From Comamonadaceae bacterium (lineage in GTDB: Bacteria > Pseudomonadota > Gammaproteobacteria > Burkholderiales > Burkholderiaceae_C): a DNA stretch of 41,439 nucleotides. The DNA lies in NCBI GenBank assembly GCA_947449895.1, contig CANFSO010000010.1, positions 1 to 41,439 of the forward strand, given 5' to 3'. The first letter of the stretch is position 1, and each line of letters opens with the position of its first letter. This document shows positions 21,963 to 40,266 of this stretch, in pieces. Made by a program: the position numbers and the translations under genes. The notes under the pieces were generated by a model. The model saw only the letters and a program-made list of their open reading frames with translations. It did no database searches and was not told where the DNA came from.

Positions 21963-22952
21963 TCAGGGTTTGAGAACGATCTTCCCCGTACTGGTTCCAG
22001 CATCCAGCATCTGATGAGCCAATTGAATCTCAGACATCCGCAGCACCGTGGCTTTCGGCGCCTTGACATGGCCACGAGACATCTGCTCGATGGCTTGCGC
22101 CATGAGCGCACGCCGCTGGACTGCATCGTCATCCAAGGTGTGCATGGAGAAGGTCCGAATCGCTAAGCTGCGGTTCAGCAATGTGCGCATCTCTTTGAAG
22201 AGGTTGTCTTCCGGCAAGCCTTTGATGATGTTGATCGACACGACCATGCCCATCGGGGCCAAGCTGCGCAGACAAGCGATGAGCGAGTCACCGCCCAACT
22301 GGTCGACCGCCAAGTCCACGCCTTTGCCGCCGGTGACTTCAAGCACGTTGGTCGGCAAGGTGTCTGCGTTGCCACTCAACAAGTGGTCAACGCCATTTTC
22401 CAGAATGTAGCGGGTCTTCTCGACCGACGATGTGGTGCCAATCACCCGTGCATTTTTGTAATGCGCCAGACGGGTCAAGATAGACGCCACGCCACCGGAC
22501 GCACCCGGGATGAGGATGGATTCAATCGGCAGACCGCCATTGCACATCCAGATGGCGTTTGCAAATTGCAAATTAGGCAAACTGGCCGCATCCACCGGAT
22601 CAATGGTCTCGGACAAAACATACACGGCCTGGGCCGGCACGCAGATGTACTCGGCACAGCAGCCGGCCCTGATCTTCAGTTCCCGGGCACTCACCAAGAC
22701 GCGTTGGCCTTTGATCGACGCATCAACGCCGCTGCCCACCGCATCCACAATCCCGACCATTTCGCTGCCGGGAATAACCGGCAGGGGCGGCATCCATTTG
22801 TAAACGCCCTTGCGGACCAAGACATCGGGACGGCCAATGCCGATCGCTTCGGCTTTGACCCTGACTTCCCCGGCCGCGGGCTCGGGTGTCAGCACATCAA
22901 CCTCCGTGAGGACTTCTGGTCCGCCCGGTTGGAAAATTTGAATCGCTCGCAT
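21963..22952 (-). CDS. Zinc-independent quinone oxidoreductase-like MDR protein
   Basis: Protein of 329 residues of the medium-chain dehydrogenase/reductase superfamily. A GroES-like N-terminal domain opens MRAIQIFQPGGPEVL, with GRPDVLVRKGVY where zinc alcohol dehydrogenases have their catalytic cysteine. The nucleotide fold contains ILIPGASGGVASILTRLA. The absence of zinc ligands points to the quinone oxidoreductase/enoyl reductase branch using NADPH. It is the last gene of the GntR-led operon, starting 2 bases after the AA_synth gene. The substrate is not evident. Confidence 0.88.
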   Translation of the reverse strand: MRAIQIFQPGGPEVLTEVDVLTPEPAAGEVRVKAEAIGIGRPDVLVRKGVYKWMPPLPVIPGSEMVGIVDAVGSGVDASIKGQRVLVSARELKIRAGCCAEYICVPAQAVYVLSETIDPVDAASLPNLQFANAIWMCNGGLPIESILIPGASGGVASILTRLAHYKNARVIGTTSSVEKTRYILENGVDHLLSGNADTLPTNVLEVTGGKGVDLAVDQLGGDSLIACLRSLAPMGMVVSINIIKGLPEDNLFKEMRTLLNRSLAIRTFSMHTLDDDAVQRRALMAQAIEQMSRGHVKAPKATVLRMSEIQLAHQMLDAGTSTGKIVLKP

Positions 22953-22954
22953 GC

Positions 22955-23533
22955 TCAGCGCTGCCCATCATGAACGGAGACATTTTCTTTCGTCAATCCG
23001 CCGAGACGGGAATGGACGCGGCCGCCAGTGCCCATGACCAAGGCAAACAAGATTTCATTCGGTCGCGGCGCATCTTGGATGCCGATCTCCATCGTGTTGT
23101 AGTGGCTGCGCACATAGGACGCGTGGATGTAATGCAGTGGGACCATCAGGCGGTAGCCGGTCGCGGCGACCGCCTTGGCGGCAGGCACCATGGCCTTGGG
23201 CTCGCCCAACAGCGCGCGCATCGCCCAGCCGCCGGCTTCGTGCCAAACCGCACCGTGCTCTAGCTCGCCATTGACGCCCACAATGGCGGCCTTGCTGTAA
23301 ACCTCGATGTTGTCTTTGCCGAGCGTGTCGACGAGTTCCTGCGCCAACAGCGTTCCCAAGGATCGGAGCTCCGCCATGAACGGCATGAGGTTTTCTTCAT
23401 AGCGGCCCGCGTATGGGTTTTGAATGACCGCGCAGGCAGCGGCCAACTTCAAGGGTTTGCTTGCAACGGGGCCTCCCTCATGAAAGATGGTTTCAATCGT
23501 CAAGCTGCGTTTTCTAATCTGGATCAATGACAT
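22955..23533 (-). CDS. AA_synth-family protein (amino acid synthesis family, PF06684-like)
   Basis: Protein of 192 residues. The segments AAACAVIQNPYAGRYEENL, KAAIVGVNGELEHGAVWHEAGGWAMR and VPLHYIHASYVRSHYNTMEIGIQDAPRPNEI are what I associate with the family named amino acid synthesis protein, whose reaction is not established. The conserved His, Tyr and Arg in the last segment could be functional. No signal peptide. It is packed 2 bases before the MDR gene and follows a Bug receptor, so it is probably a catabolic enzyme here rather than a biosynthetic one. The family name should not be taken as a function. Confidence 0.8.
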   Translation of the reverse strand: MSLIQIRKRSLTIETIFHEGGPVASKPLKLAAACAVIQNPYAGRYEENLMPFMAELRSLGTLLAQELVDTLGKDNIEVYSKAAIVGVNGELEHGAVWHEAGGWAMRALLGEPKAMVPAAKAVAATGYRLMVPLHYIHASYVRSHYNTMEIGIQDAPRPNEILFALVMGTGGRVHSRLGGLTKENVSVHDGQR

Positions 23534-23555
23534 TTTTGGCTTCGTTGTGATGTGT

Positions 23556-24521
23556 TTATTGCTTCGGTATCTTGGCGTCGGCCACCACTTGAACCCAGCG
23601 ACTGAGCTCCGAGGCGACCATGTTCTTCATCTCTTCAGGCGTGCTGCCGCGGACCTCGCCGCCGATGTCTTCGAGCCGTGCTTTCACGGCCGGAATTTGC
23701 AAGGCTTTTTGCATCTCTGCGTTCAGCCGGTCGACCACAGCACGCGGTGTGCCGGTCGGCGCCATCAGCCCGGCCCACGAACGCACGTCGTAACCCGCTA
23801 CGCCTTGCTCGCTCACGGTCGGCACGTCTGGCAAACCCGGCCAGCGCTGCGAACCTGTGGCCGCCAGCGCGCGCAACTTGCCCGCCTTGATGTTGCTGAG
23901 CACGGCGGTGGGTGGCGCGATGATGAACGGCACGTCACCCGCCAACAGCGCGGTGAGGGATGCCGCGTCGCCACGGTAGGGCACGTGCAGCATGTCAACA
24001 CCTGCCATCTTGGCCAGCAGTTCGCCCGCCAAATGATGCGTTGAACCAATTCCGGCCGTGCCGTAAGCCACGGTGCCCGCTGCGCTTTTAGCGGCGGCCA
24101 GCACGTCTTTGAAATTGCGGAATTTCGAATTGGCTTGCGTGACGATGAGGAAAGGGAAATACGTGATGGTCGAGACCATCTCGAAACTGCTGACCGTCTG
24201 ATACGGAAGCGTGTTGTAGAGCGCACCCGCCACCACATGACCGCCTGTGGCCAGCAGCAGCGTGTAACCATCGGGTTTGGCGCGGGCAACCGTGGTGGCG
24301 GCAATCGTGCCACCCGCACCGGCTTGGGCATCGACCACAAACGGCTGGCCCAGCGTCTTGCCCATTTCGCCGCCGACCAAACGCGCAATCGCGTCCGCAT
24401 TGCCGCCTGGCGCGAAGCCCTGCAAGATGCGAATCGGCCGCTCTGGATAGGTTTGGGCCCACGTTGGCAAGCTGGCCGCAGCACCTGCCGCACCGATGCT
24501 TAAAAAGAGTCTTCTGTCCAT
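23556..24521 (-). CDS. Bug/TctC-family receptor with Tat-like signal
   Basis: Protein of 321 residues. The N-terminus MDRRLFLSIGAAGAAASLPTWA carries a twin arginine and a short hydrophobic stretch ending in TWA before Gln, so Tat export is likely, unlike the other three Bug proteins here. The mature part opens YPERPIRILQGFAPGGNADAIAR, with the expected ligand loop, and has HVPYRGDAASLTALLAG and LPDVPTVSEQGVAGY. AGGAGA lies 7 bases before the ATG at 24521. It sits between the FAH hydrolase and the AA_synth gene, which suggests it imports the operon's substrate. Confidence 0.92.
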   Translation of the reverse strand: MDRRLFLSIGAAGAAASLPTWAQTYPERPIRILQGFAPGGNADAIARLVGGEMGKTLGQPFVVDAQAGAGGTIAATTVARAKPDGYTLLLATGGHVVAGALYNTLPYQTVSSFEMVSTITYFPFLIVTQANSKFRNFKDVLAAAKSAAGTVAYGTAGIGSTHHLAGELLAKMAGVDMLHVPYRGDAASLTALLAGDVPFIIAPPTAVLSNIKAGKLRALAATGSQRWPGLPDVPTVSEQGVAGYDVRSWAGLMAPTGTPRAVVDRLNAEMQKALQIPAVKARLEDIGGEVRGSTPEEMKNMVASELSRWVQVVADAKIPKQ

Positions 24522-24611
24522 TTGTTTGTCTCCTGTTTTTTTAAGACACCCTGCCTGGACCTCTGACGGGTCCATGGCGGGTCAGCCGCGATAAGACGCG
24601 CTAAAACGGGC

Positions 24612-25475
24612 TCAGGCGCCGGCGACGATCGGGTTGCGCAAGGTGCCGACCGCTTCGATCTCAACTTCCACCACATCGCCAGCGCGCATGACCAACGGTG
24701 GTTTGCGGCTCCAGCCGACACCGGCTGGTGTGCCCGTCGCGATGACGTCACCCGGCACCAGCGTGAAGATGGTCGAGGCGTAATTGATCAGCGTCGGGAT
24801 GTCGAAAATCATGTGGCCGGTGTGGCTGGACTGCTCAACCTTGCCGTTCAGGCGCGTGACCAATTTGAGTTCACGGCCTGGTGCGATTTCGTCGGCGGTG
24901 ACCATCCACGGGCCAAAGCCGCCGGTGGCTTCGAAGTTTTTGCCGGAGGCAATTTGCTTGGCATGGAACTGCCATTCGCGCACACTCGCGTCGTTGTAGC
25001 ACGAATAGCCGGCGACGTATTGCCAAGCGTCTTCTTTCGGGATGTTGCGGCCCTCTTTGCCGATGATGACGGCCAACTCGCCTTCCCAGTCGAGTGAGTC
25101 AGAGACCTTCGGATTGACGATCGCTTGGTTGTGCCCGATCTGTGAGCGCCAGACGCGCAAGAAAATCGGTGGCTGCTCTGACAACTCACGGTGCATGCCG
25201 GCGGCCAGCACTTCTTTGTGGTGGTCCATGTAGTTGCGCACGGCACAAATGATTTTTTCAGAACGCGGGATCACCGGCAGGTAATGCAGGGTCGCCAACG
25301 GACCGTCAACCGGTGCGCCTTTGGCGTGCTCTGCCGCCTTCAAGTAGTCGCCCGAACCGATGTACTCGGCCAGCGTCGGCAACTGCGGTCGGCTGCGGCT
25401 CAGGTTAACCACTTCATCGCCGATGGCCGCGCCATAGCATTCCTGACCTTGATGCATGTATGACAGTAATCTCAT
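24612..25475 (-). CDS. Fumarylacetoacetate hydrolase (FAH) family protein
   Basis: Protein of 287 residues. The FAH fold occupies about residues 70-285. Metal ligands are expected at Glu131 and Glu133 (DWEGELAVIIG) and Asp162 (YNDASVREWQ), and GDVIATGTPAGVGWSRKPP is the family's C-terminal signature. Members hydrolyse or decarboxylate 2-oxo acids from aromatic ring cleavage, or act on oxaloacetate. GGAG lies 7 bases before the ATG. It follows a VOC-superfamily protein in the operon, a pairing common in ring-cleavage pathways. The substrate is not known. Confidence 0.92.
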   Translation of the reverse strand: MRLLSYMHQGQECYGAAIGDEVVNLSRSRPQLPTLAEYIGSGDYLKAAEHAKGAPVDGPLATLHYLPVIPRSEKIICAVRNYMDHHKEVLAAGMHRELSEQPPIFLRVWRSQIGHNQAIVNPKVSDSLDWEGELAVIIGKEGRNIPKEDAWQYVAGYSCYNDASVREWQFHAKQIASGKNFEATGGFGPWMVTADEIAPGRELKLVTRLNGKVEQSSHTGHMIFDIPTLINYASTIFTLVPGDVIATGTPAGVGWSRKPPLVMRAGDVVEVEIEAVGTLRNPIVAGA

Positions 25476-25517
25476 GAAATCTCCAACAGTTAAAACAAAA
25501 AAATAATAGGCCTTGAA

Positions 25518-26063
25518 TCACGCCGCCGATTGGCTCTCAAAACGGGCATGCCAATCTGCCAGTGGCATGAAGGTCGGGTCTGCGCGGCAGATCGCCTCGG
25601 TCTCGCGCATCAGCTCTGCATCGCTCTTGCTGAGGTCGAGCGGGTCGCCATGCGGTTGCGCCACGTACCAAGGGGTATCGATATAGACCTCGATGGTGTT
25701 GCCCTCGGGATCTGCAAAATATATCGACAGCGCATTGCCGTGGTTCAGGCCGCGCATCTGAGTCGCGCCATGCGCCAACGCGGCGGCTTGCGCATCGCGG
25801 ATGTGTTGGATGTCAGGCACCGCAAACGAAATCTGCATGACGGTGCTGAAGGATGCCTCTGGCGGGCGCCCAGACGCCAACACCAGTTGGTGATGTTGGT
25901 CTGGACTGGCGCTCATGAACACCAACTCGCTCTTGAAGGTCCGGCCGACACCACGGTCGGTGACTGTGAGCCCAAAAACCTGCGTATAAAAAGCCACCAT
26001 GCGCTCGATGTCGGTGACAAAAATTCCAAAGTGCGATGGCGTCGGCCGGGTCACTGAAAGCAT
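25518..26063 (-). CDS. VOC-superfamily protein (glyoxalase/extradiol dioxygenase fold)
   Basis: Protein of 181 residues with one VOC module repeated as two halves (PSHFGIFVTDIERMVAFYTQVFGL, then ISFAVPDIQHIRDAQAAALAHG). Metal ligands are probably His11, His57 or His58, and Glu125 in NTIEVYID. In length and wording it is close to single-module extradiol dioxygenase-like proteins often labelled biphenyl-2,3-diol 1,2-dioxygenase, but a lyase or isomerase cannot be excluded. AGGAG lies about 6 bases before the ATG at 26063; the open frame upstream overlaps the GntR gene and is not coding. Second gene of the operon. Confidence 0.88.
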   Translation of the reverse strand: MLSVTRPTPSHFGIFVTDIERMVAFYTQVFGLTVTDRGVGRTFKSELVFMSASPDQHHQLVLASGRPPEASFSTVMQISFAVPDIQHIRDAQAAALAHGATQMRGLNHGNALSIYFADPEGNTIEVYIDTPWYVAQPHGDPLDLSKSDAELMRETEAICRADPTFMPLADWHARFESQSAA

Positions 26064-26097
26064 GGGTTTCTCCTGTTTTGAAATGACGTTCTGGGGC

Positions 26098-26793
26098 TTA
26101 GCTTTGACTGGCCTCAAGGCGCAGAAGTGCCGCTTCGACATTGGCCTGGGTGCTGCGGATGTGTTCAGCCAGCAGAACGCAAGCGGTGTCGGCATCGCGT
26201 TTGAGCACGGCTTCCATCAGGTGGCGGTGCTCCTTGGTTTTGTTGTGAAGCGCCACACGATGTCGTGCTGAGTAGCGCCGATAACGCTCGGCCTGGTCAA
26301 AAAAACTCGCACACAAGCTGCGCTGTCGCTGTGATGGGCAAGCCGCCAGCAGCGCTAAATGGTAGTCACGGTGCAGGCCACTCCAGGTGTCGTTGAGCAC
26401 CTTCGGCCCGTCACCCAGTTGTGATTCAACCTTGGCCAAGCGATGGGCCGCCGCCACGATGGCCGCCTCCCAAGCATCGTCGCCGTGCAGCATGGATTCA
26501 CGCAGCGCAGCGACATCGACCAGCAAACGCATGTGCGTGATGTCGGCCAAGTCTTCGCGTGAAATCAGTGCCACCCTGAATCCCTTGCGGTCATCGGCTT
26601 TGACCAAGCCCTCTTGACTCAGACGGTTCAGCGCTTCGCGCAGGGGGCTGCTGGAAAAGCCGTAGCTGCCCTGCAGCTCATCAATTTTGAGTTTGGCGCC
26701 CGGCTCAAAAGCCCCCGCGAGAACCGCATGACGCAGCTGCGCAAAAGCTTGCTCGGATAGCGGCGCGTCCATTGGGAAAGTGGTGGCAGGCAT
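26098..26793 (-). CDS. GntR-family regulator, FCD subfamily
   Basis: Protein of 231 residues from the ATG at 26793 (a TTG at 26817 would add eight). The winged helix (about residues 8-75) includes the family motif SSSPLREALNRLSQEGLVKADDRKGFRV. The C-terminal helical FCD ligand domain (about 85-220) has the histidines expected for metal binding in DYHLAL and KEHRHLMEAV. It heads the minus-strand operon, 34 bases before the VOC gene, so it likely controls its own operon. A palindromic sequence lies just upstream. Confidence 0.92.
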   Translation of the reverse strand: MPATTFPMDAPLSEQAFAQLRHAVLAGAFEPGAKLKIDELQGSYGFSSSPLREALNRLSQEGLVKADDRKGFRVALISREDLADITHMRLLVDVAALRESMLHGDDAWEAAIVAAAHRLAKVESQLGDGPKVLNDTWSGLHRDYHLALLAACPSQRQRSLCASFFDQAERYRRYSARHRVALHNKTKEHRHLMEAVLKRDADTACVLLAEHIRSTQANVEAALLRLEASQS

Positions 26794-26820
26794 GTGGTGA
26801 CTTTTGAGTTTCGCCAACTT

Positions 26821-26847
26821 TATGCATAAAAATTAATTTTGTGCATA
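26821..26847. promoter_or_regulatory. Palindromic region upstream of the GntR gene
   Basis: TATGCA (26821-26826) and TGCATA (26842-26847) flank an AT-rich centre with AATTAATT, giving a nearly perfect inverted repeat offset by one base. It lies between the GntR gene and the divergent DMT gene, a fitting place for an autoregulatory operator overlapping promoter elements. Confidence 0.45.
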
Positions 26848-27941: not shown

Positions 27942-27978
27942 GTCCAAGTTCATCGTGCCAGTCCCTCTATCATGGCCG

Positions 27979-28425
27979 ATGAACAAAAGAGACTCCACTG
28001 ACCTTATTGGCGGCCTGTTCCTCACAGCCTTAGGCCTTTTCTTCGTTATTTACGCTCAACGCTACAGCATGGGTACGCTGAACCGCATGGGTCCCGCTTA
28101 CTTTCCAATCGCCTTGGGCGGCGTCTTGGCCTTCCTAGGCTTACTGATCGCAGTACCCGCTTGGTTCCGAGCCGGCGTGGGTCCAGAAGTGAGCTGGAAA
28201 ACCCTGTTCATCGTCATTGGCAGCGTGGTGCTGTTTGGCGCTACGCTACAAACGATGGGCTTGGTTTTCGCCTGCATGACTACCCTGCTCGTCGCCTCCT
28301 TGGCGGACAACGACATCAGTTGGCGTGAGCGCGTCATTTTGATGGTCTCCGTCCCGCCCATCATCTACCTCATCTTCATCTTTGGGCTTGGCATGACAGT
28401 GCCGGTTTGGCCCTGGAGCTACTGA
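27979..28425 (+). CDS. tctB: TctB-family small membrane subunit of a tripartite tricarboxylate transporter
   Basis: Protein of 148 residues with four hydrophobic segments, at about 11-30, 44-62, 76-92 and 118-140, and the conserved MGPAYFPIALGGVLAFLGL segment. TctB partners the large TctA channel to move a carboxylate delivered by a Bug receptor, driven by an ion gradient. ATG at 27979 fits the family; the frame extends to a GTG at 27955. tctA follows after 114 bases that contain a terminator-like hairpin, and no receptor gene is directly attached. Confidence 0.9.
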   Translation: MNKRDSTDLIGGLFLTALGLFFVIYAQRYSMGTLNRMGPAYFPIALGGVLAFLGLLIAVPAWFRAGVGPEVSWKTLFIVIGSVVLFGATLQTMGLVFACMTTLLVASLADNDISWRERVILMVSVPPIIYLIFIFGLGMTVPVWPWSY

Positions 28426-28481
28426 ACACAGCGCCAACGGCGCTCTGCTCCGCCCCCTAACTGCTGCGCCTTTGCGCCACA

Positions 28482-28508
28482 CATCCCGCCAGCGGCGGGA
28501 TGCTTTTT
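28482..28508 (+). terminator. Terminator-like hairpin between tctB and tctA
   Basis: CATCCCGCC, loop AGC, GGCGGGATG, then CTTTTT: a perfect 9-base stem and U-tract, as good as a textbook rho-independent terminator, placed inside what should be one operon. It may lower tctA expression relative to tctB, or tctA may have its own promoter. Confidence 0.75.
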
Positions 28509-28539
28509 GAATCCCCCTTAGGTTTTAGGAGATAAATAT

Positions 28540-30066
28540 ATGGACACCATGGACGGCCTGTTATTTGGCATGCAAACGGCCCTGCAGCCATCAGTACTGA
28601 TTTATTGCTTCGCTGGCGTTTTTCTCGGCACCTTGGTGGGTGTACTACCGGGCATCGGCGGCCTAGCGACGATCTCCTTGCTGCTGCCAGTCACTTACCA
28701 CATGGCGCCCACTGAAGCGATCGTCATGCTGGCCGGCGTTTATTACGGCTCAAATTATGGGGGCTCGACCGCATCAATTTTGTTGAACCTGCCTGGTTCC
28801 GCCTCGTCGGCGGTGGCCTGCTTAGACGGCTACCCGATGGCCCAACAAGGCAGGGCTGGCATTGCGTTGTTCATGACGACGATTGCCTCTTTCATCGGCT
28901 CGATGATCGGCCTTGCCTTGTTGATTGCTTTCGCGCCCAGCATCACAGAAATCGGCTTCAAGTTTGGTCCCGCCGAGTATTTCTCCATCATGCTGATGGG
29001 CTTGGTCGCAGCGTCCACGCTGAGCATGGGCGCCCCGGCTAAAAGTTTGGCGATGGTGGTCATGGGCCTGCTCATCGGCAGCGTTGGAACCGATGTGAAT
29101 TCCGGCGTCGCCCGCTTTAGTTTCGACATCCCTGAACTGACAGACAGCATCAGCTTGGTGGCGCTGGCCATGGCGATCTTTGGTGTGTCGGAGGTGGTTT
29201 CCAAAGTCAATAAAGTCAGCAAAACCACCGTGAAAGAAAAAATCACGTTCCGCAGCATGTTGCCGTCGCGTGCAGAATTCAAAACCACCATCATGCCGAT
29301 GCTGCGCGGCAGTGCTGTGGGTAGTTTTTTTGGCGCCCTGCCGGGCACAGGTGGCTCCATTTCTTCGTTCATGGCCTACGCGGTCGAGAAAAAAGTATCC
29401 AAAGACCCTAGCCGCTTTGGTACCGGTGCTATTGAAGGCGTGACAGCACCAGAGTCTGCCAACAACGCCGGCGCCCAGACCGCGTTTGTGCCCACGCTGA
29501 CGCTGGGTATTCCAGGCGATGCGACGATGGCCCTGATGCTCGGTGCGCTGATGATCCACGGCATTCAACCGGGTCCGATGATGATGAGCGAGCAGCCCGA
29601 AGTATTCTGGGGTTTGATCGCCAGCTTCTTCACCGGCAACATCTTGCTGCTGGTGCTGAATATCCCACTGGTCGGTCTCTGGGTATCGATTCTGCGCATC
29701 CCCTACCGCGCGCTTTTCCCGACCATCTTGGTGCTCATGAGTCTGGGCGTTTACAGCGTTAACAACAACGTCTTTGATGTGTACATGGTGGCTGGACTCG
29801 GGGTTCTGGGTTACTTCATGAATATCTTCAAGTTCCCTGCGGCGCCCATGTTGCTCGGCTTTGTACTAGGCCCCATGGTTGAAGAAAATCTGCGGCGCGC
29901 TTTGCTGCTGTCACGCGGCGACATGATGACCTTCATCGAACGCCCAATCAGTGCCTCGGTGATGGCCGTGACGGCACTGCTCATGATCTGGACTATTTGG
30001 AACGCCATCAGAACCGAATCTAAAGTCCGTGCCGAAAGGAAACTCTTGCTCAAGGAATCAACCTAA
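28540..30066 (+). CDS. tctA: TctA-family large membrane subunit of a tripartite tricarboxylate transporter
   Basis: Integral membrane protein of 508 residues with about 11-12 helices. Typical family segments are GVLPGIGGLATISLLLPVTYHM near residue 33, YYGSNYGGSTASILLNLPGSASS near 65, and the second-half repeat GALPGTGGSISSFMAYAVEKK with GIPGDATMALMLGALMIHGIQPGP. It forms the transport path used with TctB and a periplasmic Bug protein. GGAG precedes the ATG. A strong terminator follows. With four Bug genes in this window and only this one membrane pair, it may be shared among receptors. Confidence 0.95.
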   Translation: MDTMDGLLFGMQTALQPSVLIYCFAGVFLGTLVGVLPGIGGLATISLLLPVTYHMAPTEAIVMLAGVYYGSNYGGSTASILLNLPGSASSAVACLDGYPMAQQGRAGIALFMTTIASFIGSMIGLALLIAFAPSITEIGFKFGPAEYFSIMLMGLVAASTLSMGAPAKSLAMVVMGLLIGSVGTDVNSGVARFSFDIPELTDSISLVALAMAIFGVSEVVSKVNKVSKTTVKEKITFRSMLPSRAEFKTTIMPMLRGSAVGSFFGALPGTGGSISSFMAYAVEKKVSKDPSRFGTGAIEGVTAPESANNAGAQTAFVPTLTLGIPGDATMALMLGALMIHGIQPGPMMMSEQPEVFWGLIASFFTGNILLLVLNIPLVGLWVSILRIPYRALFPTILVLMSLGVYSVNNNVFDVYMVAGLGVLGYFMNIFKFPAAPMLLGFVLGPMVEENLRRALLLSRGDMMTFIERPISASVMAVTALLMIWTIWNAIRTESKVRAERKLLLKEST

Positions 30067-30135: not shown

Positions 30136-31056
30136 TCAGGCGCTGACCAGCTCCGGCCAATACAAGCGCATCGGGTTGTCCACCAGCAACTGCTGTTGCA
30201 GCGCCGACGTGCTGGCAATGGCCGGAATGAAGTCAACCAGCAGGCCGTCGTCGGGCATGTGGTCTTTCAGGTTCGGATGCGGCCAATCGGTGCCCCACAA
30301 AACGCGGTCTGGAAAGCTCTCAACCAAACGCCGCGCAAACGGCACGACGTCACGGTAAGCCTGCGCCTCACCGTTCAGCGCCTTCGGCCCAGTGACGCTC
30401 AAACGCTCCGGGCAAGTGACTTTGCTCCAGACATTCGGGTGCAGGCGCATGAACTTCATGAACAACTCAAACTCTGGTCCGTCCACCGGCTGACTGACGT
30501 TGGGTCGGCCCATGTGGTCGACCACCACAGTGGTCGGCAAGGCGGTGAAAAAGTCCCACAACTCGGGCAGGTCAACGGCTTCAAAATAAATCACCACATG
30601 CCAGCCCAGAGGCGCAATGCGTGCGGCAATTTCAAGCAGTTCATCTTTGGGCGTGAAGTCGACCAAGCGCTTCACAAAGTTAAACCGCACCGCGCGCACG
30701 CCCGCTGCATGCATCGCCTGCAAGGCCGCGTCGGTGACGTCACGGCGCACGGTGGCCACGCCGCGCGCACGACCTTCTGAAGCCGTGAGTGCCGCGAGCA
30801 TGGCGCTGTTGTCCGCACCATGGCATGTCGCTTGCACGATCACGTTGCGGGCAAAGCCGAGGTGGTCGCGCAAGGCAAACAACTGCGCGGCAGAGGCATC
30901 ACACGGCGTGTACTTGCGCTCTGCCGCATACGGATATTGCGCGCCAGGACCAAAGACATGGCAATGCGCGTCGACCGCGCCTGCGGGTAACTTGAAACGG
31001 GGCTGGCTCGGGCCGGTGTACCAGTCGAGCCAGCCGGGGGTTTTGGTGAATTCCAT
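30136..31056 (-). CDS. ligI: 2-pyrone-4,6-dicarboxylate lactonase
   Basis: Amidohydrolase-fold enzyme of 306 residues that opens 2-pyrone-4,6-dicarboxylate (PDC) to 4-oxalomesaconate in the protocatechuate 4,5-cleavage pathway. Metal-site and catalytic marks: His31 and His33 in DAHCHVFGP, His181 in VDHMGRP and Asp257 in WGTDWPHP. RDHLGFARNVIVQATCHGADN and RFNFVKRLVD are very like Sphingobium LigI. ATG at 31056 agrees with the family start; an upstream ATG would add 20 unrelated residues. It is the last gene of the lig operon, 34 bases after a Bug receptor gene. Confidence 0.93.
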   Translation of the reverse strand: MEFTKTPGWLDWYTGPSQPRFKLPAGAVDAHCHVFGPGAQYPYAAERKYTPCDASAAQLFALRDHLGFARNVIVQATCHGADNSAMLAALTASEGRARGVATVRRDVTDAALQAMHAAGVRAVRFNFVKRLVDFTPKDELLEIAARIAPLGWHVVIYFEAVDLPELWDFFTALPTTVVVDHMGRPNVSQPVDGPEFELFMKFMRLHPNVWSKVTCPERLSVTGPKALNGEAQAYRDVVPFARRLVESFPDRVLWGTDWPHPNLKDHMPDDGLLVDFIPAIASTSALQQQLLVDNPMRLYWPELVSA

Positions 31057-31090
31057 CGGGGTCTTTGTTCTGAAGGGAGGTTGACGTCGG

Positions 31091-32104
31091 TCAGTCGGGT
31101 TTGATGTTGGCGTCACGGACGACCTTGGCGTAGCGCAGACGATCCGAATGAATCAGCGCGGCGAACTGCTCGCTGCTGCCCGGCAACACGATGCCGCCCA
31201 CCGCCGCCATGCGCTCGCGCACCTCGGGCGTTTGCAAGGCCTTCTGAACTTCGGCGTGCAGCCGCTGCACCACCGCTTTGGGGGTCGCGGCAGGCGCAAC
31301 CAAGCCATACCAGACCGAGGCCTCAAAGCCCGGAAAACCGCTCTCGGCCAGGGTGGGTACGTCCGGCAGCGTAGCAGCACGTGTTGGGCTCAACACCGCC
31401 AGCACGCGCAAGCGCCCGCTCTTGACGTGAGGCAGCGCCTCCAGTGCGTTGACAGCGACCATGGGCAACTGACCCCCGATGACGTCAGTGATAGCCGGAC
31501 CGCCGCCACGGTAAGGTACGTGCGACAACGAGATGCCGGCAGTCGCCTGGAACAACTCGACCGCCATGTGCGGCGTCGAGCCATTGCCAGGGCTGGCGTA
31601 ATTGATGCTGCCGGGCTTGGCCTTGGCCAGCTCGATTAATTTAGCCAAGCTCGCTGGACCGGTGGCGGCATTGACAGCCAGCACCACCGGCACGCGGCCG
31701 ACCAGCGCAATCGGCACAAGGTCTTTTTCAGCGTCAAAAGGCGCCGGCTGGTAGAGCGACATGTTGGCGGCCAGCGCATTGGCGGCCAACATCAAGGTGT
31801 AGCCATCAGCCGGGCTGTCGATCACATACTTAACGGCGATATTGGTGCCAGCGCCGGGTTTGTTTTCGATGACAAAGGGCTGGCCTAGGCTGGCCGACAG
31901 CGACTGACCCAAGGTGCGCGCCACGATGTCCACCGCGCCGCCAGCCGGATAACCCACGACCAGTTTGATTGGCTTGACCGGATAGGTCTGGGCCAGCGCC
32001 GGGCTGGCCAGCAAGCCAGCACCGAAGGCGCACAGCAACAACGCGGCAAGGATGTGACGGCGTGTCTGCAGCAGTGCCGAGTTGGATGTTTTGAATAAGG
32101 TCAT
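31091..32104 (-). CDS. Bug/TctC-family receptor within the lig operon
   Basis: Protein of 337 residues. The signal peptide (about 1-38) is HILAALLLCAFGAGLLASPALAQ. The mature part opens YPVKPIKLVVGYPAGGAVDIVAR and later shows HVPYRGGGPAITDVIGGQ and LPDVPTLAESGFPGF. ATG at 32104 has GGACG just upstream; another in-frame ATG is five codons earlier. It lies between a solute-binding lipoprotein and ligI, so it may deliver PDC or an aromatic acid such as protocatechuate or phthalate to a TctA/TctB pair, the nearest being 1 kb away on the other strand. Confidence 0.92.
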   Translation of the reverse strand: MTLFKTSNSALLQTRRHILAALLLCAFGAGLLASPALAQTYPVKPIKLVVGYPAGGAVDIVARTLGQSLSASLGQPFVIENKPGAGTNIAVKYVIDSPADGYTLMLAANALAANMSLYQPAPFDAEKDLVPIALVGRVPVVLAVNAATGPASLAKLIELAKAKPGSINYASPGNGSTPHMAVELFQATAGISLSHVPYRGGGPAITDVIGGQLPMVAVNALEALPHVKSGRLRVLAVLSPTRAATLPDVPTLAESGFPGFEASVWYGLVAPAATPKAVVQRLHAEVQKALQTPEVRERMAAVGGIVLPGSSEQFAALIHSDRLRYAKVVRDANIKPD

Positions 32105-32133
32105 GATGCGTCCGTCCATAAAAAATATAAAAA

Positions 32134-32946
32134 TCAGTCTGGGCTGGTGCCGCGCAGGCCAGCACGTTTCACGATGCCGGCGAGCAACCCTGAACGGCGT
32201 GCGTCTTCTGCGAACTGACGCACGAAAGGCATGGCCACACCGCGTTGCTGCGGAATCGCAATGGCCATGGTTTCGAGGCCCCAACGGCCATCCAAAATTC
32301 GGTAGCCGGGCAGCGCATCAGCCATTTCATTGAGAATGCCCTTGTTGGTCGCGAAGGCGTCGAGCTGGCCCTCTCGAAACATGACTTGCGCTAGCGTGAC
32401 CGACGGTGCGGGCACGACGGTCGCTCTTTTGAAGAGACGACCCAGCACACCCTGCGAAGAGCTGCCCTGCGCGACACCGACACGGATGCCCGGCTTATCG
32501 ACGTCGGCAACGGTTTGAAGCGTCGACATAGGCGGCACCAGATAACCGAGCTCGATCCGCACCAAGGGCGCGGTGAAATCCATGTCGCGAGCGCGCACTG
32601 CCGTGGCGTTGGTGAAAGTAAAATCCACCGCGCCGCCCTTAAGAGCTTCCAGAACATCCGCCAAGCGGGTGAATTCCTTGATCTCCACCGGCACGCCAAG
32701 CTGACGCCCTAAAGCTTGTCCAAGCTCAAACGCGACACCGGCTTTGTCACCAGTTTTGGCATCGCGCACCAGTGACGTCGGGCTGCCGAGATACACGCCC
32801 ACACGCAAGCTACCCGTGGGTGCCAGCGTCTTGACAATCACCGGATCGACTGTCGTTGTCACAGTCGGTGCGACTGATGCACAGCCAGCGGCCAGCATCA
32901 GAATCCCTGACGCCACACTCCAAAGAATTTTTCTGCACAAGTTCAT
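32134..32946 (-). CDS. Orphan solute-binding lipoprotein, family 3 (SBP_bac_3)
   Basis: Protein of 270 residues. A signal peptide with lipobox LAAGC (Cys22) means it is membrane-anchored. The mature domain begins LAPTGSLRVGVYLGSPTSLVRDAKTGDKAGVAFELGQALGRQLGVPVEI, the amino-acid-binding periplasmic fold, with a second lobe at about 150-240. No ABC permease or ATPase is nearby. It lies inside the lig operon between ligK and the Bug gene. It may bind a dicarboxylate-like ligand for sensing or for a remote transporter. An anchored family-3 receptor in a ring-degradation operon is unusual. Confidence 0.87.
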   Translation of the reverse strand: MNLCRKILWSVASGILMLAAGCASVAPTVTTTVDPVIVKTLAPTGSLRVGVYLGSPTSLVRDAKTGDKAGVAFELGQALGRQLGVPVEIKEFTRLADVLEALKGGAVDFTFTNATAVRARDMDFTAPLVRIELGYLVPPMSTLQTVADVDKPGIRVGVAQGSSSQGVLGRLFKRATVVPAPSVTLAQVMFREGQLDAFATNKGILNEMADALPGYRILDGRWGLETMAIAIPQQRGVAMPFVRQFAEDARRSGLLAGIVKRAGLRGTSPD

Positions 32947-32991
32947 CGGTCTCTTTCTTTTTCAGCTGACAAACACGCTTGGCGAAGCGCT

Positions 32992-33702
32992 TCAGTCGAT
33001 GTAACGCATACCGGCTTTTTCAAGCGGTTCACGCATCTTGTACATGTCGAGCCCGAGCACTCCGGAAGCGAGCAGTGCACGCTTGTCGGCTTCAAGGGCT
33101 TCGCGTTTTTCAGCGGCGTTGGCCACTTCCATGGCGCGGGCAGCAGGGATCACCACCACGCCATCGATGTCGGCCACGATCACGTCACCCGGATTGACAA
33201 AGGCGCCAGCGCAAACCACCGGCACATTGACCGAGCCCAGTGTGGCCTTGACAGTCCCCTTGGAATGAATGGCGCGGCTGAAGACCGGAAAGTTCATTTC
33301 GGTGAGATCGCTGACGTCGCGCACACCGGCGTCGATGATCAGACCGATGGCACCACGCGAGCGAAACGAGGTCGCCAGCAAGTCCCCAAAAAAACCATCG
33401 TCGTTGTCGGTGGTGCACGCGGCCACGGCGACGTCGCCGGGCTGCAACTGCTCAGCCGCCACATGCAGCATCCAGTTGTCGCCGGGCTGCAGCAAGATCG
33501 TGACGGCCGTCCCGCAGAGGCGCGCGCTCGGGTAAATCGGCCGCATGTAGGGCTTCATGAGACCGACGCGGCCCATCGCTTCGTGCAAGGTCGCAACGCC
33601 AAAGCGCGAGAGTTTATCGACGGCCGCTTTGTCGGCGCGAATGATGTTGCGCTTAACGATGCCGAGCTGATTGAAGAGGTCGAGATTGTCGCTCATGGTC
33701 AT
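32992..33702 (-). CDS. ligK: 4-carboxy-4-hydroxy-2-oxoadipate aldolase
   Basis: RraA-fold class II aldolase of 236 residues that splits 4-carboxy-4-hydroxy-2-oxoadipate into pyruvate and oxaloacetate; it often also decarboxylates oxaloacetate. Arg128-Asp129 in IIDAGVRDV is the conserved active-site pair, and [20 protein letters not shown] and the long C-terminal region (about 200-236) are typical of LigK/GalC rather than RraA itself. Its ATG overlaps the ligJ stop as ATGA. A second ATG two codons on is possible. Confidence 0.93.
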
Positions 33703-34742
33703 TGGCCTTTGAGTTTGAGGGCGGCATCGAGGCGCGGAAAAACCCGGCGCGCATTGCCTTCGTAAATCTGAAAACGGTCTGCATCGCTGAGGATTTTGGA
33801 GGACTCTATATAGCGCTTGGTGTCGTCGTAATAGTGGCCGGTTTGCGGATCGATGCCGCGCACAGCCCCGATCATCTCGGACGCAAACAAGACGTTTTTC
33901 ACCGGGATCACGGTGTTCAGCAAGTCGATGCCAGGTTGGTGATAAACGCAGGTGTCGAAGAAAATATTGTTCAGCAAATGCTCTTCGAGCAGCGGCTTTT
34001 TGAGCTCTTGCGCCAAGCCGCGAAAACGGCCCCAGTGGTAGGGCACCGCACCGCCGCCGTGCGGAATCAAAAAGCGCAACGTCGGAAAGTCTTTGAACAA
34101 GTCACTGGTCAGGCACTGCATGAAGGCGGTGGTGTCGGCGTTCAGGTAATGCGCGCCCGTGGTGTGAAAGCAGGCGTTGCAGCTGGTGCTCACATGGATC
34201 ATGGCGGGAATGTCGTGCTCCACCATTTTTTCGTAAATCGGGTACCACTGCTTGTCGCTCAGCGGCGGGGAAGTCCAGTGGCCGCCCGATGGGTCGGGGT
34301 TCAGGTTGATGCCGACGTTGCCGTACTCTTTGACGCAGCGCTCCAGTTCGGGAATGCAGGTGGCCGGATCAACACCGGGCGACTGCGGCAGCATGGCCGC
34401 GCCGATGAAGTGGTCTGGAAATAACTCGCTGACGCGAAAGCACAGCTCATTGCAAATAGCCGCCCAGGTGGCCGAGGTGTTGAAGTCGCCGATGTGGTGG
34501 GCCATGAAACTGGCGCGCGGCGAGAAGATGGTGAGGTCGCTGCCGCGCTCTTTCATCAGACGCAGCTGGTTGCTTTCAATCGATTCACGCAGCTCGTCGT
34601 CGCTGATGTTCAGGTCAGCTGCTTTGGGGCCGGCTGACGGATTGCCCAAGCTGGCGATCTGTTGGTTACGCCAGTTCTCCAGCGCTTTGGGTGCCGTGGT
34701 GTAGTGCCCGTGGCAGTCGATGATGAGGGGCTTTTTAGACAT
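33699..34742 (-). CDS. ligJ: 4-oxalomesaconate hydratase
   Basis: Amidohydrolase-fold enzyme of about 347 residues that adds water to 4-oxalomesaconate, giving 4-carboxy-4-hydroxy-2-oxoadipate. The start [15 protein letters not shown] carries the His-x-His metal motif. [38 protein letters not shown] and [21 protein letters not shown] are nearly word for word those of Sphingobium LigJ. The start is uncertain between 34742, with AAAGAAG just before it, and 34754, four codons earlier. It is translationally coupled to ligK. Confidence 0.94.
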
Positions 34743-34777
34743 GGCTTCTTTCATGGATGTAGAGTTGGTTGGATGGC

Positions 34778-35875
34778 TCAGCGGCCGTCCCAGACCGCGT
34801 GCGGAATCAGCGCCTCGCCGCGCATCAGCAAGCGGGCTGTGCGCAACAAAGCGGCCCGCGTGACGTTTTGCGGCTGAGCCGGGTCTAACCCCAACTCAAC
34901 GCTGAACTCACCTGTTGGGTGTTCGACCGAGACTGTTTTGGGATTGCCCTCGGCCATGACCGCCACGCCGTCGCAGACCGAGCCTTTGAGTACACAAGCC
35001 GTGCCGACCGTGACAGCCGCCAACACGCCAATGGCGTCATGGCAAACATGTGGAATGAAACTGCGCGTACACAAAGTACCGCCGTTCTGGGGCGCGGCAA
35101 TCAGCGTCATCTTGGGGTAATTTTTGCTGGTCACGTCGCCGAGTTGCATGGCGTGACCGGCAGCAATCCGCAGCGTCTCAAGGCGGGCTTTCAATTCAGT
35201 GTCAGCGTTGAGTTCGGCCACGCTTTCGTAACCGGTGCGCCCAACGGCGCTGGCCAGAAACATCACCAGCGGCATGCCGTTGTCGATGCAGGTGACTTCA
35301 ATGCCGTCGATCACATCGCGCACTTGGCCGGTCGGCAACAGGCCGGGTGCCACCGAACCCGCCGTGTCGAGAAAATTGATGGTGATGGGCGCCGAGCTGC
35401 CCGGCGCGCCATCGATGCGCGCCGACCCGGCGTACTCGACGTATCGGCCCTTTTCACCCAGCGGCGTCAGCACCGTGATGTCGCACTGCATGTCGGTGTT
35501 GAGCGTCAGCACGCGCAAAGTGGTGCTGTCGCCCTGCGCTTGCACCAAGCCGGTTTCCAGCGCAAAAGGCACGACAGCGGCCAACATGTTGCCGCAATTG
35601 GGCGTGGTGTCGACGCTGTCGCCGTTGGGCTGCAGTTGGGCAAACAAAAAGTCGAGGTCGACGCCCGGCGTGCTGCTTTTGGAAACGATGCCGGCTTTGC
35701 TGGTCAAAGGATGAGCACCGCCGAGTCCGTCGATCTGACGCGGGTCAGGCGAACCCATCACCGCCAGCAAGACCTTGTCCCGCGTCGGCAGATCGGCCGG
35801 CAAGTCGGACGCCAGAAAAAAGGGGCCCTTGGAGGTGCCGCCACGCATGAGAAGACAGGGGATCGCAGTTTGCAT
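34778..35875 (-). CDS. ligU: 4-oxalomesaconate tautomerase (PrpF family)
   Basis: Protein of 365 residues with the two-lobed diaminopimelate epimerase/PrpF fold. It interconverts tautomers of 4-oxalomesaconate so that LigJ can act (called LigU in Sphingobium, GalD in Pseudomonas). Lys16 in MRGGTSKGPFF and Cys94 in TPNCGNM are the conserved active-site positions; HPLTSKAGIV and VTSKNYPKMTLIA are family segments. First gene of the lig operon. No ribosome-binding site is visible before the ATG. It is divergent from a LysR gene across 102 bases. Confidence 0.92.
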   Translation of the reverse strand: MQTAIPCLLMRGGTSKGPFFLASDLPADLPTRDKVLLAVMGSPDPRQIDGLGGAHPLTSKAGIVSKSSTPGVDLDFLFAQLQPNGDSVDTTPNCGNMLAAVVPFALETGLVQAQGDSTTLRVLTLNTDMQCDITVLTPLGEKGRYVEYAGSARIDGAPGSSAPITINFLDTAGSVAPGLLPTGQVRDVIDGIEVTCIDNGMPLVMFLASAVGRTGYESVAELNADTELKARLETLRIAAGHAMQLGDVTSKNYPKMTLIAAPQNGGTLCTRSFIPHVCHDAIGVLAAVTVGTACVLKGSVCDGVAVMAEGNPKTVSVEHPTGEFSVELGLDPAQPQNVTRAALLRTARLLMRGEALIPHAVWDGR

Positions 35876-38924: not shown

Positions 38925-40235
38925 TCAAGCCACCGATCCATTCACTAACTCTTCAAAGAGCGTTTCTGTTCCCATCTGCCCGCCTTTGAGCATGATTTCC
39001 AAGCCGTCCATCAGCGGGTTGTCACTGTGCAGGCAGCACAGTGCAACGCCCGGCGTCAGTTGGGCCCGGTAGGACAGCCCCCAAGCGTCCAAGGCTTGAA
39101 CTGCGTGACTGGACGTGTCTCCCCCCGCAATCCCTAAGCGTTTGACTGGCGTGATGCGCAGCACCTGCGCCAACAGATCGCCGCATGCGCGGGCTAGATT
39201 ACGGCCATGCGTGACGCCTGCCGTCTCGCCATTTGACGCGGTGAAGGCCAGCACATGGCGCCCCCCGGCAAGGGCTTTGGCGACATGGCTGGCTGTACTG
39301 ACCACGTAGGTCGGATCAGTTTCAAGGTGTTGCGGGTCTAAGCTGACATGCAGATAGGAGCTGGCCGCGCTCACTTGCAGTGCCGTCAGCGGCGACAAAC
39401 TGCCCGCCAGAACCAGCACGGGCCCATCAGCAGCGGCCACGCGCGGTGCCACCAACTCGGGCGCGATTTTCCAGTGCGCGACGAGCGCCTGCACCACGCT
39501 GCTGGGGCCAGCGGCGAGCAAGGGTTGCACTTGGGCGCGCGCCCAGATCAGCCGGCCCACGCTGGCCAGTTGACAGGCGTCAGACAGATCCATCAGCACG
39601 GCCCTTGGGGCGGCGCTGGCTTGCGGTGCCTGAGCCAGTAACGCATCCATCTGTTCGTCCAGCTCGGCGTCACTCTGCGCATAGTCGGTGTAGTTGATCG
39701 ACTGCACATTGTGCAGACCTTGCGCCTCAAGATGCAGGCGCAAATCTGCCTCATGCATCGGCGTCACAGGGTGCTGGCGCATCGTCGGATGGCGGTCAAT
39801 GCGGGCCACTGTGCTGTCGGTGCCGGCGAACAAGTTGCCAAAGACGCAGTAGCGCCGCAAATTGGGCTGGCCCCCGACGATAGGCACCCATGAATTGCCG
39901 GTGTAGTGCTGCAAGATGCTGATCGCCGCGCCGATGCTGCCAACATGCGGCGCACTGTCAAACGTCGAGCAGGTTTTGTAGTGCACAACGCTTGCACCGA
40001 GTCGGGCGAACAATGCACCGACAGGCGCCAGTTCCACCCGCATTTCGTCGGGTGTCATGGCGCGTGCTGCGCCGGCAATGCCCAAGCAGTCCAGCGGTCC
40101 AGCGCGTTCAAGTTGCGCGGGTGTTGGCAAACCCAGATACAACACCGTGCGCAAGCCAGCGCGAGCGGCAGTCGACAGGGTGTCGGTGGCGCCCGTGAAG
40201 TCGTCGCCGTAGAACGCGATTTTGAGATCGGCCAT
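38925..40235 (-). CDS. DUF1537 four-carbon/branched acid-sugar kinase (OiaK/OtnK-like)
   Basis: Protein of 436 residues. The N-terminal domain starts KIAFYGDDFTGATDTL, with the catalytic-type aspartates of the family; the C-terminal nucleotide-binding domain includes LVLAGSLSPLTALQVSAA, LAFTASNGETAG and LGIAGGDTSSHAVQAL. Family members phosphorylate tetronates (erythronate, threonate) or 3-oxo-isoapionate. The RuBisCO-like gene directly upstream favours the 3-oxo-isoapionate type, since that kinase is known to act just before an RLP. ATG at 40235 was chosen because homology begins there; another ATG lies at 40259. Substrate assignment is inference. Confidence 0.88.
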   Translation of the reverse strand: MADLKIAFYGDDFTGATDTLSTAARAGLRTVLYLGLPTPAQLERAGPLDCLGIAGAARAMTPDEMRVELAPVGALFARLGASVVHYKTCSTFDSAPHVGSIGAAISILQHYTGNSWVPIVGGQPNLRRYCVFGNLFAGTDSTVARIDRHPTMRQHPVTPMHEADLRLHLEAQGLHNVQSINYTDYAQSDAELDEQMDALLAQAPQASAAPRAVLMDLSDACQLASVGRLIWARAQVQPLLAAGPSSVVQALVAHWKIAPELVAPRVAAADGPVLVLAGSLSPLTALQVSAASSYLHVSLDPQHLETDPTYVVSTASHVAKALAGGRHVLAFTASNGETAGVTHGRNLARACGDLLAQVLRITPVKRLGIAGGDTSSHAVQALDAWGLSYRAQLTPGVALCCLHSDNPLMDGLEIMLKGGQMGTETLFEELVNGSVA

Positions 40236-40266
40236 CAGGCCACTGCCGTGCGGCGCCATGGCCCGG

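Follow-up and report, generated by a model that had tools for sequence, protein, structure and literature searches.

The window, a stretch of 41,439 nucleotides from a MAG that is 78.5% complete, contains six minus-strand ORFs at positions 21963-26793, all of which are open and belong to the GntR/FCD, VOC, FAH, Bug, AA_synth and QOR-like families. Each of the six products scored above the Pfam cut-off for its family. With the starts chosen here, the intergenic gaps from the GntR gene to the QOR-like gene amount to 34, 42, 90, 22 and 2 nt, which bears out the tightly packed minus-strand cluster announced in the preliminary description. For the VOC and Bug genes, internal ATG starts were taken, the longer ORFs reaching 26195 and 24575, respectively. 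A pattern scan revealed no terminator-like pattern between the six genes; overall, terminator-like patterns occurred at chance level (seven vs 5.7 in shuffles) and a single promoter-like match was found against 1.4 expected. In NCBIfam, AA_synth, Bug, TctA and TctB were left without a family assignment. Genes for LigK and oxalomesaconate tautomerase are located in the same window as the operon.

The GntR/FCD regulator (26098..26793, minus strand; PF00392, PF07729) has several start candidates, namely the ATG at 26793, an upstream TTG at 26817 and the position 26772 given by a codon-usage gene finder, and the choice among them is uncertain. As had been noted before, a palindrome lies upstream of the operon: TTTATGCATAAA (26819..26830, unstranded) occurs once, is absent from 100 shuffles and is a candidate operator through which GntR might repress the operon. 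The motif TTATGCATAA was found upstream of 13 of 75 GntR homologs compared with 7 of 2400 random windows, five of these 13 loci being the window and four near-identical relatives, and it was present in none of ten GntR regions from outside Burkholderiales.

A Bug/TctC periplasmic solute receptor is encoded at 23556..24521 (minus strand; PF03401, 7e-70). Its closest solved relatives are Bug27 and BugD, with terephthalate-binding proteins matching as well, and a twin arginine was spotted by eye in its N-terminus (MDRRLFLSIG). The last gene (21963..22952, minus strand; PF00107, PF08240) codes for a QOR/PIG3-like medium-chain reductase that reaches 160 bits for TIGR02824, below the cut-off of 297 bits. 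Zinc ADHs have a GHE motif, at whose position this protein carries PGSE, which is the basis of its earlier label as zinc-free.

The single-domain VOC protein (25518..26063, minus strand; PF00903) was compared in a set of 79 sequences, obtained after two of 81 labelled proteins had been removed by score or length. Its best profile match is the catechol 2,3-dioxygenase 1MPY (7.2e-12) and extradiol dioxygenases lead the list, while Foldseek returned extradiol dioxygenases mixed with glyoxalases and FosX. In the alignment, H11 (kept in 77 of the 79 sequences) as well as H58, H108, Y115 and E125 (kept in all 79) fall on H153, H199, H246, Y255 and E265 of 1MPY. We take H153, H214 and E265 to be the metal ligands of 1MPY, H214 being the second metal histidine, and H199, H246 and Y255 to be its second-sphere His and Tyr residues. 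The second-sphere equivalents (H58, H108, Y115) are all present in the VOC protein. The 2-His-1-Glu triad is incomplete, as Q77, again found in 79 of 79 sequences, aligns with H214. This invariant Gln at the position of the second metal histidine is, as judged from the alignment, a new feature and hints that the extradiol metal site may depart from the canonical one. Most likely, the protein is a single-domain extradiol ring-cleavage dioxygenase resembling HcdB. A tree of 43 of the 79 sequences showed long branches and left the sister status of window-type and hcd-type VOC proteins unsettled.

The point of comparison is the route by which Pseudomonas mandelii 7HK4 degrades 7-hydroxycoumarin, which is encoded by hcdABC/hcdDEFG (PMC6222606, PMC7913881), with accessions MH346032-4 and MW310253 for HcdA to HcdD. 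In five related loci (L143-L147), apparently from Pseudomonadaceae, a FAH-VOC-FMO operon, with FMO denoting an FAD hydroxylase, faces AA_synth-ADH-cupin genes with a GntR gene beside them; in three of the five, an FMN reductase gene is located next to the cupin gene. The products measure 30.5-30.9 kDa (FAH), 21.2 kDa (VOC; 19.0 kDa in L144, where the start was trimmed) and 57.9-60.4 kDa (FMO), and the published sizes are 31.2 kDa for HcdC and about 20 and about 62 kDa for its partners (PMC6222606, PMC7913881). In layout, size and partner families, these loci thus fit the published cluster. PMC6222606 also prints bands of 62, 31 and 20 kDa for HcdA, HcdB and HcdC, in conflict with its own 31.2 kDa for HcdC; if HcdB were the 31 kDa protein, the hcd match would fail. 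The same source terms HcdB a type I class II enzyme and describes cleavage of catechols by HcdB in whole cells (PMC6222606).

Proteins of the window are 39-59% identical to their counterparts in the five loci: 39-42% for VOC, 41-43% for FAH, 47-49% for the adjoining GntR and 56-59% for AA_synth. The fumarylacetoacetate-hydrolase-family protein (24612..25475, minus strand; PF01557, 4.8e-65) has a mass of 31.4 kDa, compared with the 31.2 kDa of HcdC. Because the FAH-VOC-FMO loci fit the hcd layout, sizes and families, the VOC protein is read as a probable HcdB-like dioxygenase and the FAH protein as a likely HcdC-like hydrolase of the ring-fission product. The FMO proteins of L147 and L072 exceed the NCBIfam cut-off of a 3-(3-hydroxyphenyl)propionate hydroxylase subfamily.

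The preliminary description knew of no pathway with this gene set, a statement that is not supported in view of FMO, VOC and FAH genes with a nearby AA_synth gene (hcdD) in the published hcd cluster; a pathway already assigned to the set had been listed there as a refutation. As in strain 7HK4, a VOC-superfamily protein (the ring-cleavage dioxygenase there and a probable one here), a FAA-family hydrolase and an AA_synth protein (HcdD) are found in one region. The match is partial, however, since neither the Bug receptor nor the QOR-like reductase of the window appears to have a counterpart in the named hcd genes (PMC6222606, PMC7913881), whereas the hydroxylase, HcdE, cupin and FMN reductase genes of hcd are absent from the window operon. 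In the incomplete genome itself, an HcdA-like FAD hydroxylase gene (46% identity) is located at the edge of another contig; an HcdE-like ADH was not found (best 25%), and the best match in a cupin search reached 33%. A simple replacement of HcdE by the QOR-like reductase is disfavoured because both genes co-occur in the Variovorax loci L054, L078 and L079 and the QOR-like protein is only 24% identical to the HcdE-type ADH. The gene set also invites comparison with the ifc (Variovorax V35, isoflavone) and fde (Herbaspirillum, naringenin) systems, in which an FAD hydroxylase and a "putative glyoxalase" take part in opening the A-ring of a plant phenolic and cupins (IfcD1/D2) and an alpha/beta hydrolase are the other named enzymes; the likeness of IfcB and FdeC goes by description, and the main text of PMC11069340 mentions neither "fumarylacetoacetate" nor "amino acid synthesis".

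The genomic context of orthologs was analysed with genes called by the codon-usage gene finder. Of 80 related loci, 56 had all six genes within 7 kb of the AA_synth gene, and the set therefore exceeds chance co-location; a lack of conserved neighbourhood, named earlier as a possible refutation, is ruled out. Among loci with 5 kb of flanking sequence on both sides, the set was complete in 41 of 49. Bug and QOR-like genes lie within 7 kb in 69 and 60 of the 80 loci, respectively, gene order differs from locus to locus, and AA_synth stands alone in eight. An order-wide AA_synth search (42 regions) found VOC and FAH genes beside two of three window-type AA_synth genes, the third lacking both, and beside none of 39 others; a class-wide search (10 of 369 genomes) was left out of the results. 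VOC and FAH are likewise missing beside a 77% identical AA_synth gene in Rhizobium ACO-34A and from L020, which has AA_synth, FMO and GntR genes, and VOC-FAH pairs occur without AA_synth in L099, L102 and L150. FMO genes were found in 7 of 63 Burkholderiales loci bearing the VOC-FAH-AA_synth trio, and some of the loci repeatedly show FMO, hydratase and aldolase genes nearby. Homoprotocatechuate-type genes adjoin L025, L027, L031, L032 and L050; in L025, the respective cut-offs are exceeded by HpaH and HpaI, and matches were also obtained for an HpaE-like ALDH and a truncated LigB protein. The earlier proposal of a catabolic operon is supported: the operon is conserved, and VOC and FAH probably act successively on an aromatic ring.

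The AA_synth protein (22955..23533, minus strand; PF06684, 1.5e-65) scores 220.4 bits against a Pfam cut-off of 27 and belongs to the HcdD family. It is a full-length ortholog of BB2672 from Bordetella bronchiseptica (PDB 3byq; 4e-108 over all 192 residues). Seven residues (K81, E92, H93, R106, H144, R172, R176) are conserved to 98% or more in each of two sets (95 and 45 sequences), and these 140 proteins come from different contexts. Perchat et al. reportedly described in 2018 a trigonelline cluster in which the AA_synth protein TgnF has a luciferase-type monooxygenase, an alpha/beta-hydrolase and an ALDH as partners. These differ from the VOC and FAH partners of the window, and similar loci were found here: ALDH and alpha/beta-hydrolase genes adjoin AA_synth in all 30 top-scoring Pseudomonadaceae loci. 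As is probable for the window gene, TgnF of Acinetobacter baylyi belongs to a ring-opening catabolic cluster, and it is said to stimulate TgnE-dependent oxidation (PMC7913881). The earlier idea of a degradative AA_synth protein is not new, since HcdD and TgnF have already been placed in degradative clusters in print (PMC7913881). HcdD was proposed to help HcdE, an effect of HcdD not being seen in the same account (PMC7913881). This helper role is disfavoured because no HcdE-like ADH is seen in 59 of the 63 Burkholderiales trio loci, although ADH genes may be undercounted there since many of the locus stretches are incomplete. On comparative grounds, the "amino acid synthesis" family is thus shifted towards aromatic degradation, with VOC-FAH rather than HcdE as its testable partner.

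Taken together, we consider it likely that the operon covers the ring-opening half of an hcd-type pathway for the meta-cleavage of aromatic compounds. In this model, the Bug receptor would bind an aromatic or phenylpropanoid carboxylate, and an HcdA-type FAD hydroxylase encoded elsewhere would add a hydroxyl group to yield a catechol that bears one more hydroxyl. Extradiol opening of this ring by the VOC protein would give a 2,4-dioxo acid, which FAH would hydrolyse to two small acids; the same has been proposed for HcdC, with hydroxy-oxopentenoate and succinate as the products in 7HK4 (PMC6222606, PMC7913881). An enone is the probable substrate of the QOR-like reductase, in the way that coumarin is reduced by the distantly related HcdE, and AA_synth may aid VOC and FAH, perhaps as a tautomerase of the ring-fission enol.

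Alternatively, VOC could be a glyoxalase-type isomerase or hydrolase in an operon that handles a non-aromatic oxo acid cleaved by FAH. The invariant Gln, the presence of E. coli glyoxalase I and FosX among the top folds and the lack of a hydroxylase gene in the operon are in line with this reading, which nonetheless appears unlikely given the five residues that align with the 1MPY active site, the recurring FMO, hydratase and aldolase neighbours and the catechol cleavage by HcdB, whose gene layout matches (PMC6222606). In a sugar-acid route, FAH would hydrolyse 2,4-dioxo-3-deoxy sugar acids, with the MDR protein supplying the dehydrogenase. The best NCBIfam match of FAH is indeed 2,4-didehydro-3-deoxy-L-rhamnonate hydrolase (161 bits), the rhamnonate hydrolase 8gsr is a structural relative, and some loci have nearby genes for aldolases of the HpcH/HpaI family, whose members act on sugar acids as well. 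This score, however, is far below the equivalog cut-off of 500 bits and level with that of HpaG (160.5 bits), the L025 aldolase exceeds the HpaI cut-off and falls short of the rhamnonate aldolase cut-off, and no sugar-acid dehydratase was recognised by eye in the mapped loci; the route is highly unlikely and was rejected.

A role in amino-acid metabolism, put forward for BB2672 from its fold and genome context, draws on the branched-chain amino-acid proteins BB1772-4 among its predicted associates (PMC2954203), on ABC-transporter-like genes near other AA_synth subfamilies (L165, L167) and on one Rhizobium AA_synth gene located with branched-chain transporter genes. It was rejected as extremely unlikely, as AA_synth genes of the window subfamily keep company with VOC, FAH, GntR and Bug and those of the 30 Pseudomonadaceae loci with ALDH and alpha/beta-hydrolase; moreover, the associates of BB2672 include the adjacently numbered exported protein BB2673 and regulator BB2675 (PMC2954203), a pairing in keeping with the operon described here. 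Co-location without a shared pathway would agree with the variable gene order and the eight solitary AA_synth genes, and is as improbable given that the set stays together in most well-flanked loci despite rearrangement and that neither VOC nor FAH adjoins the 39 other AA_synth genes; it was likewise rejected.

Within the preferred meta-cleavage pathway, a possible, rather doubtful extension is that AA_synth tautomerises ring-opening enols in hcd-like and trigonelline-like pathways alike, with a His-Gln-Glu single-domain extradiol dioxygenase as its VOC partner. The near-invariant Lys, Arg, His and Glu residues of AA_synth, Gln77 of VOC, the scarcity of HcdE-like ADH genes beside VOC-FAH and the constant hydrolase and ALDH neighbours of the Pseudomonadaceae loci support this view; VOC-FAH loci without AA_synth, AA_synth loci without VOC-FAH and the missing HcdD effect argue against it.

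By gene content, what appears new is a Burkholderiales version of hcd that includes a Bug receptor and an oxidoreductase and in which AA_synth tracks VOC-FAH, not HcdE. Intermediate layouts exist in Rhodococcus opacus PD630 (ADH-cupin, GntR, FAH-AA_synth-VOC-ALDH) and Novosphingobium US6-1 (VOC-AA_synth-FAH-GntR). A ring-cleavage module named from one coumarin degrader may be common in Comamonadaceae, including several Limnohabitans and Variovorax records.

The six-gene operon at 21963-26793 on the minus strand, which the preliminary description had considered a possible new catabolic route, is judged here to be a probable variant of an already known module, that of the 7-hydroxycoumarin (hcd) genes of Pseudomonas mandelii 7HK4. 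ORF inspection bore out the positions of the six genes, and Pfam returned the families originally named, i.e., GntR/FCD, Glyoxalase (VOC), FAA_hydrolase (FAH), TctC (the Bug receptor), AA_synth (PF06684) and ADH_N/ADH_zinc_N (the quinone oxidoreductase-like protein, QOR). With the start codons chosen here, the intergenic gaps measure 34, 42, 90, 22 and 2 nt, and no promoter or terminator pattern exceeded shuffled sequence. The upstream palindrome TTTATGCATAAA (26819-26830) occurs once in the window. Its core TTATGCATAA was found upstream of 13 of 75 GntR homologs vs. 7 of 2400 random windows drawn from the 80 loci described below, though independent support for this enrichment is smaller, since the window and the four loci most closely related to it make up five of the 13 carriers. 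None of 10 GntR regions outside Burkholderiales contained the core. A TctB-TctA pair lies close to the operon (27976-30066) and may serve the Bug receptor as membrane partner; it was found in relative locus L002 and not in L004, where an amidohydrolase gene adjoins EamA.

Conservation was assessed in the best 80 of 329 relatives of the window AA_synth, mostly from Comamonadaceae and other Burkholderiales, with identity limits of 40% (GntR), 50% (VOC), 55% (FAH), 60% (Bug), 80% (AA_synth) and 44% (QOR). Within 7 kb of AA_synth, Bug was present in 69, FAH in 68, GntR in 64, VOC in 62 and QOR in 60 of these loci. The complete six-gene set occurred in 56 of the 80; where a locus had 5 kb or more of sequence on each side, 41 of 49 contained it. 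The most common order among the best 80 was GntR-VOC-FAH-QOR-Bug-AA_synth (32 loci), while 15 showed the window's order, GntR-VOC-FAH-Bug-AA_synth-QOR, and eight carried AA_synth without the other five. As a control, 42 regions with flanks of about 6 kb, or less where a contig ended, were taken from an order-wide AA_synth search (family present in 38 of 300 genomes), excluding the window's own match. Window-type AA_synth (82-86% identity) was seen in three of them, two with both VOC and FAH and one with neither; the remaining 39 contained neither VOC nor FAH. No VOC or FAH was found among the annotated neighbors of AA_synth on plasmids of Rhizobium ACO-34A (77% identical) and Hydrogenophaga BPS33 (57% identical). 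In Burkholderiales, then, the tie of AA_synth to VOC and FAH is strong without being absolute.

A VOC search over 398 genomes, whose family was taken to be Pseudomonadaceae on the strength of a full-length match to OprF, gave 14 strong matches (E at most 7.4e-39, 39-42% identity) and two weaker ones (33-35%); of 219 genomes with a match, all others had E values of 1.5e-7 or worse. Every one of the 14 strong matches had FAH no more than about 1.5 kb away, and 13 had AA_synth nearby. In 10 of the 16 genomes, 11-20 kb was examined. Five loci (L143-L147) share the arrangement FAH-VOC-FAD hydroxylase (FMO) opposite AA_synth-ADH-cupin, with GntR alongside; in L144, L145 and L147 an FMN reductase gene follows the cupin, and in L144 the stretch from this gene through AA_synth spans 3.0 kb. 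Three others (L148, L149 and L152) have an ALDH gene downstream of VOC, two of them also FMO, and L150 and L151 are without AA_synth. According to PMC6222606, the products of hcdABC are a FAD hydroxylase of about 62 kDa, an extradiol dioxygenase of the VOC superfamily and a protein of the FAA family with a mass of 31.2 kDa. The same paper lists bands of 62, 31 and 20 kDa for HcdA, B and C “respectively,” in conflict with its own 31.2 kDa HcdC; the 20 kDa band is read here as HcdB. Predicted sizes in L143-L147 are 57.9-60.4 kDa for FMO, 21.2 kDa for VOC (19.0 kDa in L144, with a trimmed start) and 30.5-30.9 kDa for FAH (from the MKLISYRK start). The partner families FAD_binding_3, ADH_N, Cupin_2 and FMN_red were confirmed in the hcd-layout loci, and the hydroxylases of L147 and of locus L072 exceed the cut-off of the NCBIfam 3-(3-hydroxyphenyl)propionate/3-hydroxycinnamic acid hydroxylase subfamily. 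Because layout, predicted sizes, partner families and hydroxylase subfamily fit published hcd, L143-L147 are taken as probable hcd homologs. Identities between the window and these loci are 39-42% (VOC), 41-43% (FAH), 56-59% (AA_synth) and 47-49% (GntR).

Intermediate layouts exist in Rhodococcus opacus PD630 (ADH-cupin, GntR, FAH-AA_synth-VOC-ALDH) and Novosphingobium US6-1 (VOC-AA_synth-FAH-GntR). In three Variovorax loci (L054, L078 and L079) the six-gene operon is adjoined by FMO, HcdE-like ADH and cupin genes, in L072, L074 and L076 FMO lies within it, and L020, which has neither VOC nor FAH, carries AA_synth, FMO and GntR. VOC relatives without AA_synth occur beside FMO and FAH in Variovorax boronicumulans and Agrobacterium vitis; others neighbor meta-pathway hydratases. 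Homoprotocatechuate-type genes are also present in five loci (L025, L027, L031, L032 and L050). In L025, a hydratase and an aldolase exceed the HpaH and HpaI cut-offs, an ALDH is closest to HpaE but below its cut-off, and LigB and HpaD are matched by a protein whose sequence breaks off where the locus ends. In searches of open-access literature, no description of the Burkholderiales six-gene operon was recognized. Isoflavones are acted on in Variovorax by an FMO together with a “glyoxalase” (PMC11069340), so plant phenolics would be a reasonable substrate class.

Among 79 VOC proteins, H57, H58, Q59, Q77, H108, Y115 and E125 are invariant, and H11 is present in 77, with a gap in the other two. 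The top match of a 19-sequence profile was catechol 2,3-dioxygenase 1MPY (7.2e-12), accompanied by many extradiol dioxygenases. The alignment pairs H11/H153, H58/H199, H108/H246, Y115/Y255 and E125/E265, and places Q77 opposite H214. As H153, H214 and E265 are the 1MPY metal ligands, the second metal histidine is replaced by glutamine in all 79 proteins, hcd-layout loci included. With a good AlphaFold model (pLDDT 90.4), Foldseek ranked LapB and BphC first, at low TM over two-domain chains, with glyoxalases and FosX interspersed; the modeled fold alone does not distinguish a dioxygenase from other VOC reactions. The probable dioxygenase reading is decided by gene context together with the whole-cell HcdB data in PMC6222606.

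The window AA_synth is an ortholog of BB2672 (3byq). PMC2954203 describes BB2672 as hexameric, with conserved histidines close to a cavity of some 1000 cubic angstroms, and proposes for it a role in amino-acid metabolism. Across 140 AA_synth proteins from the genomic contexts covered here, compared as two sets, R7, N39, K81, E90, E92, H93, R106, R142, H144, E160, R172 and R176 are 93-100% conserved within each set and look like an active site binding carboxylates. ADH and cupin genes accompany all eight Pseudomonadaceae loci with VOC, FAH and AA_synth. Within the fetched stretches of 63 such Burkholderiales loci, FMO occurs in seven and HcdE-like ADH in four, so AA_synth appears to partner VOC-FAH rather than HcdE there. 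AA_synth was found in 146 of the 398 Pseudomonadaceae genomes. In the best 30 loci, ALDH and alpha/beta-hydrolase genes adjoin it in every case and a luciferase-type monooxygenase gene is present in 20; the query cluster's flavin reductase was found in none within the 3.5 kb examined each. These 30 loci resemble the trigonelline cluster with TgnF (TgnF and TgnE as cited in PMC7913881). In PMC7913881, every attempt to detect an effect of HcdD is described as unsuccessful. A tautomerase function of AA_synth is offered solely as a proposal. In L164, L165, L168, L172 and L183, AA_synth occurs as tandem pairs with about 40-46% identity to the window protein. The L165 pair lies next to genes that by eye look ABC-transporter-like and molybdenum-hydroxylase-like, and in annotated plasmid records AA_synth pairs are accompanied by UPF0280.

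The organism's own genome, a 2.7 Mb MAG of 78.5% completeness, contains one AA_synth and one VOC of the window type plus a 25% relative; for an HcdE-type ADH the best relative in this incomplete assembly reached 25%. Gene absence from this MAG proves little. An HcdA/MhpA-like hydroxylase gene (G000:C25:4-1254, 46% identical) is cut by its contig start and followed by a Bug gene, and the missing upstream stretch might hold further pathway genes. A cupin gene (33% identical) has a Bug gene on one side and a luciferase-like monooxygenase gene on the other.

Elsewhere in the window, 30136-35848 holds a gene set, including a Bug receptor, consistent with the lower part of the protocatechuate 4,5-cleavage route. 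Its LigK-type aldolase and 4-oxalomesaconate tautomerase exceed NCBIfam cut-offs; of its two amidohydrolases, one (30136-31059) is closest to 4-sulfomuconolactone hydrolase, below the cut-off, and the second lies at 33699-34754. The region 38925-41439, possibly an isoapionate-type sugar-acid pathway, encodes a protein related to OiaK, the 3-oxo-isoapionate kinase (325 bits against a cut-off of 700), adjoined by a RuBisCO-large-like protein extending past the window end.
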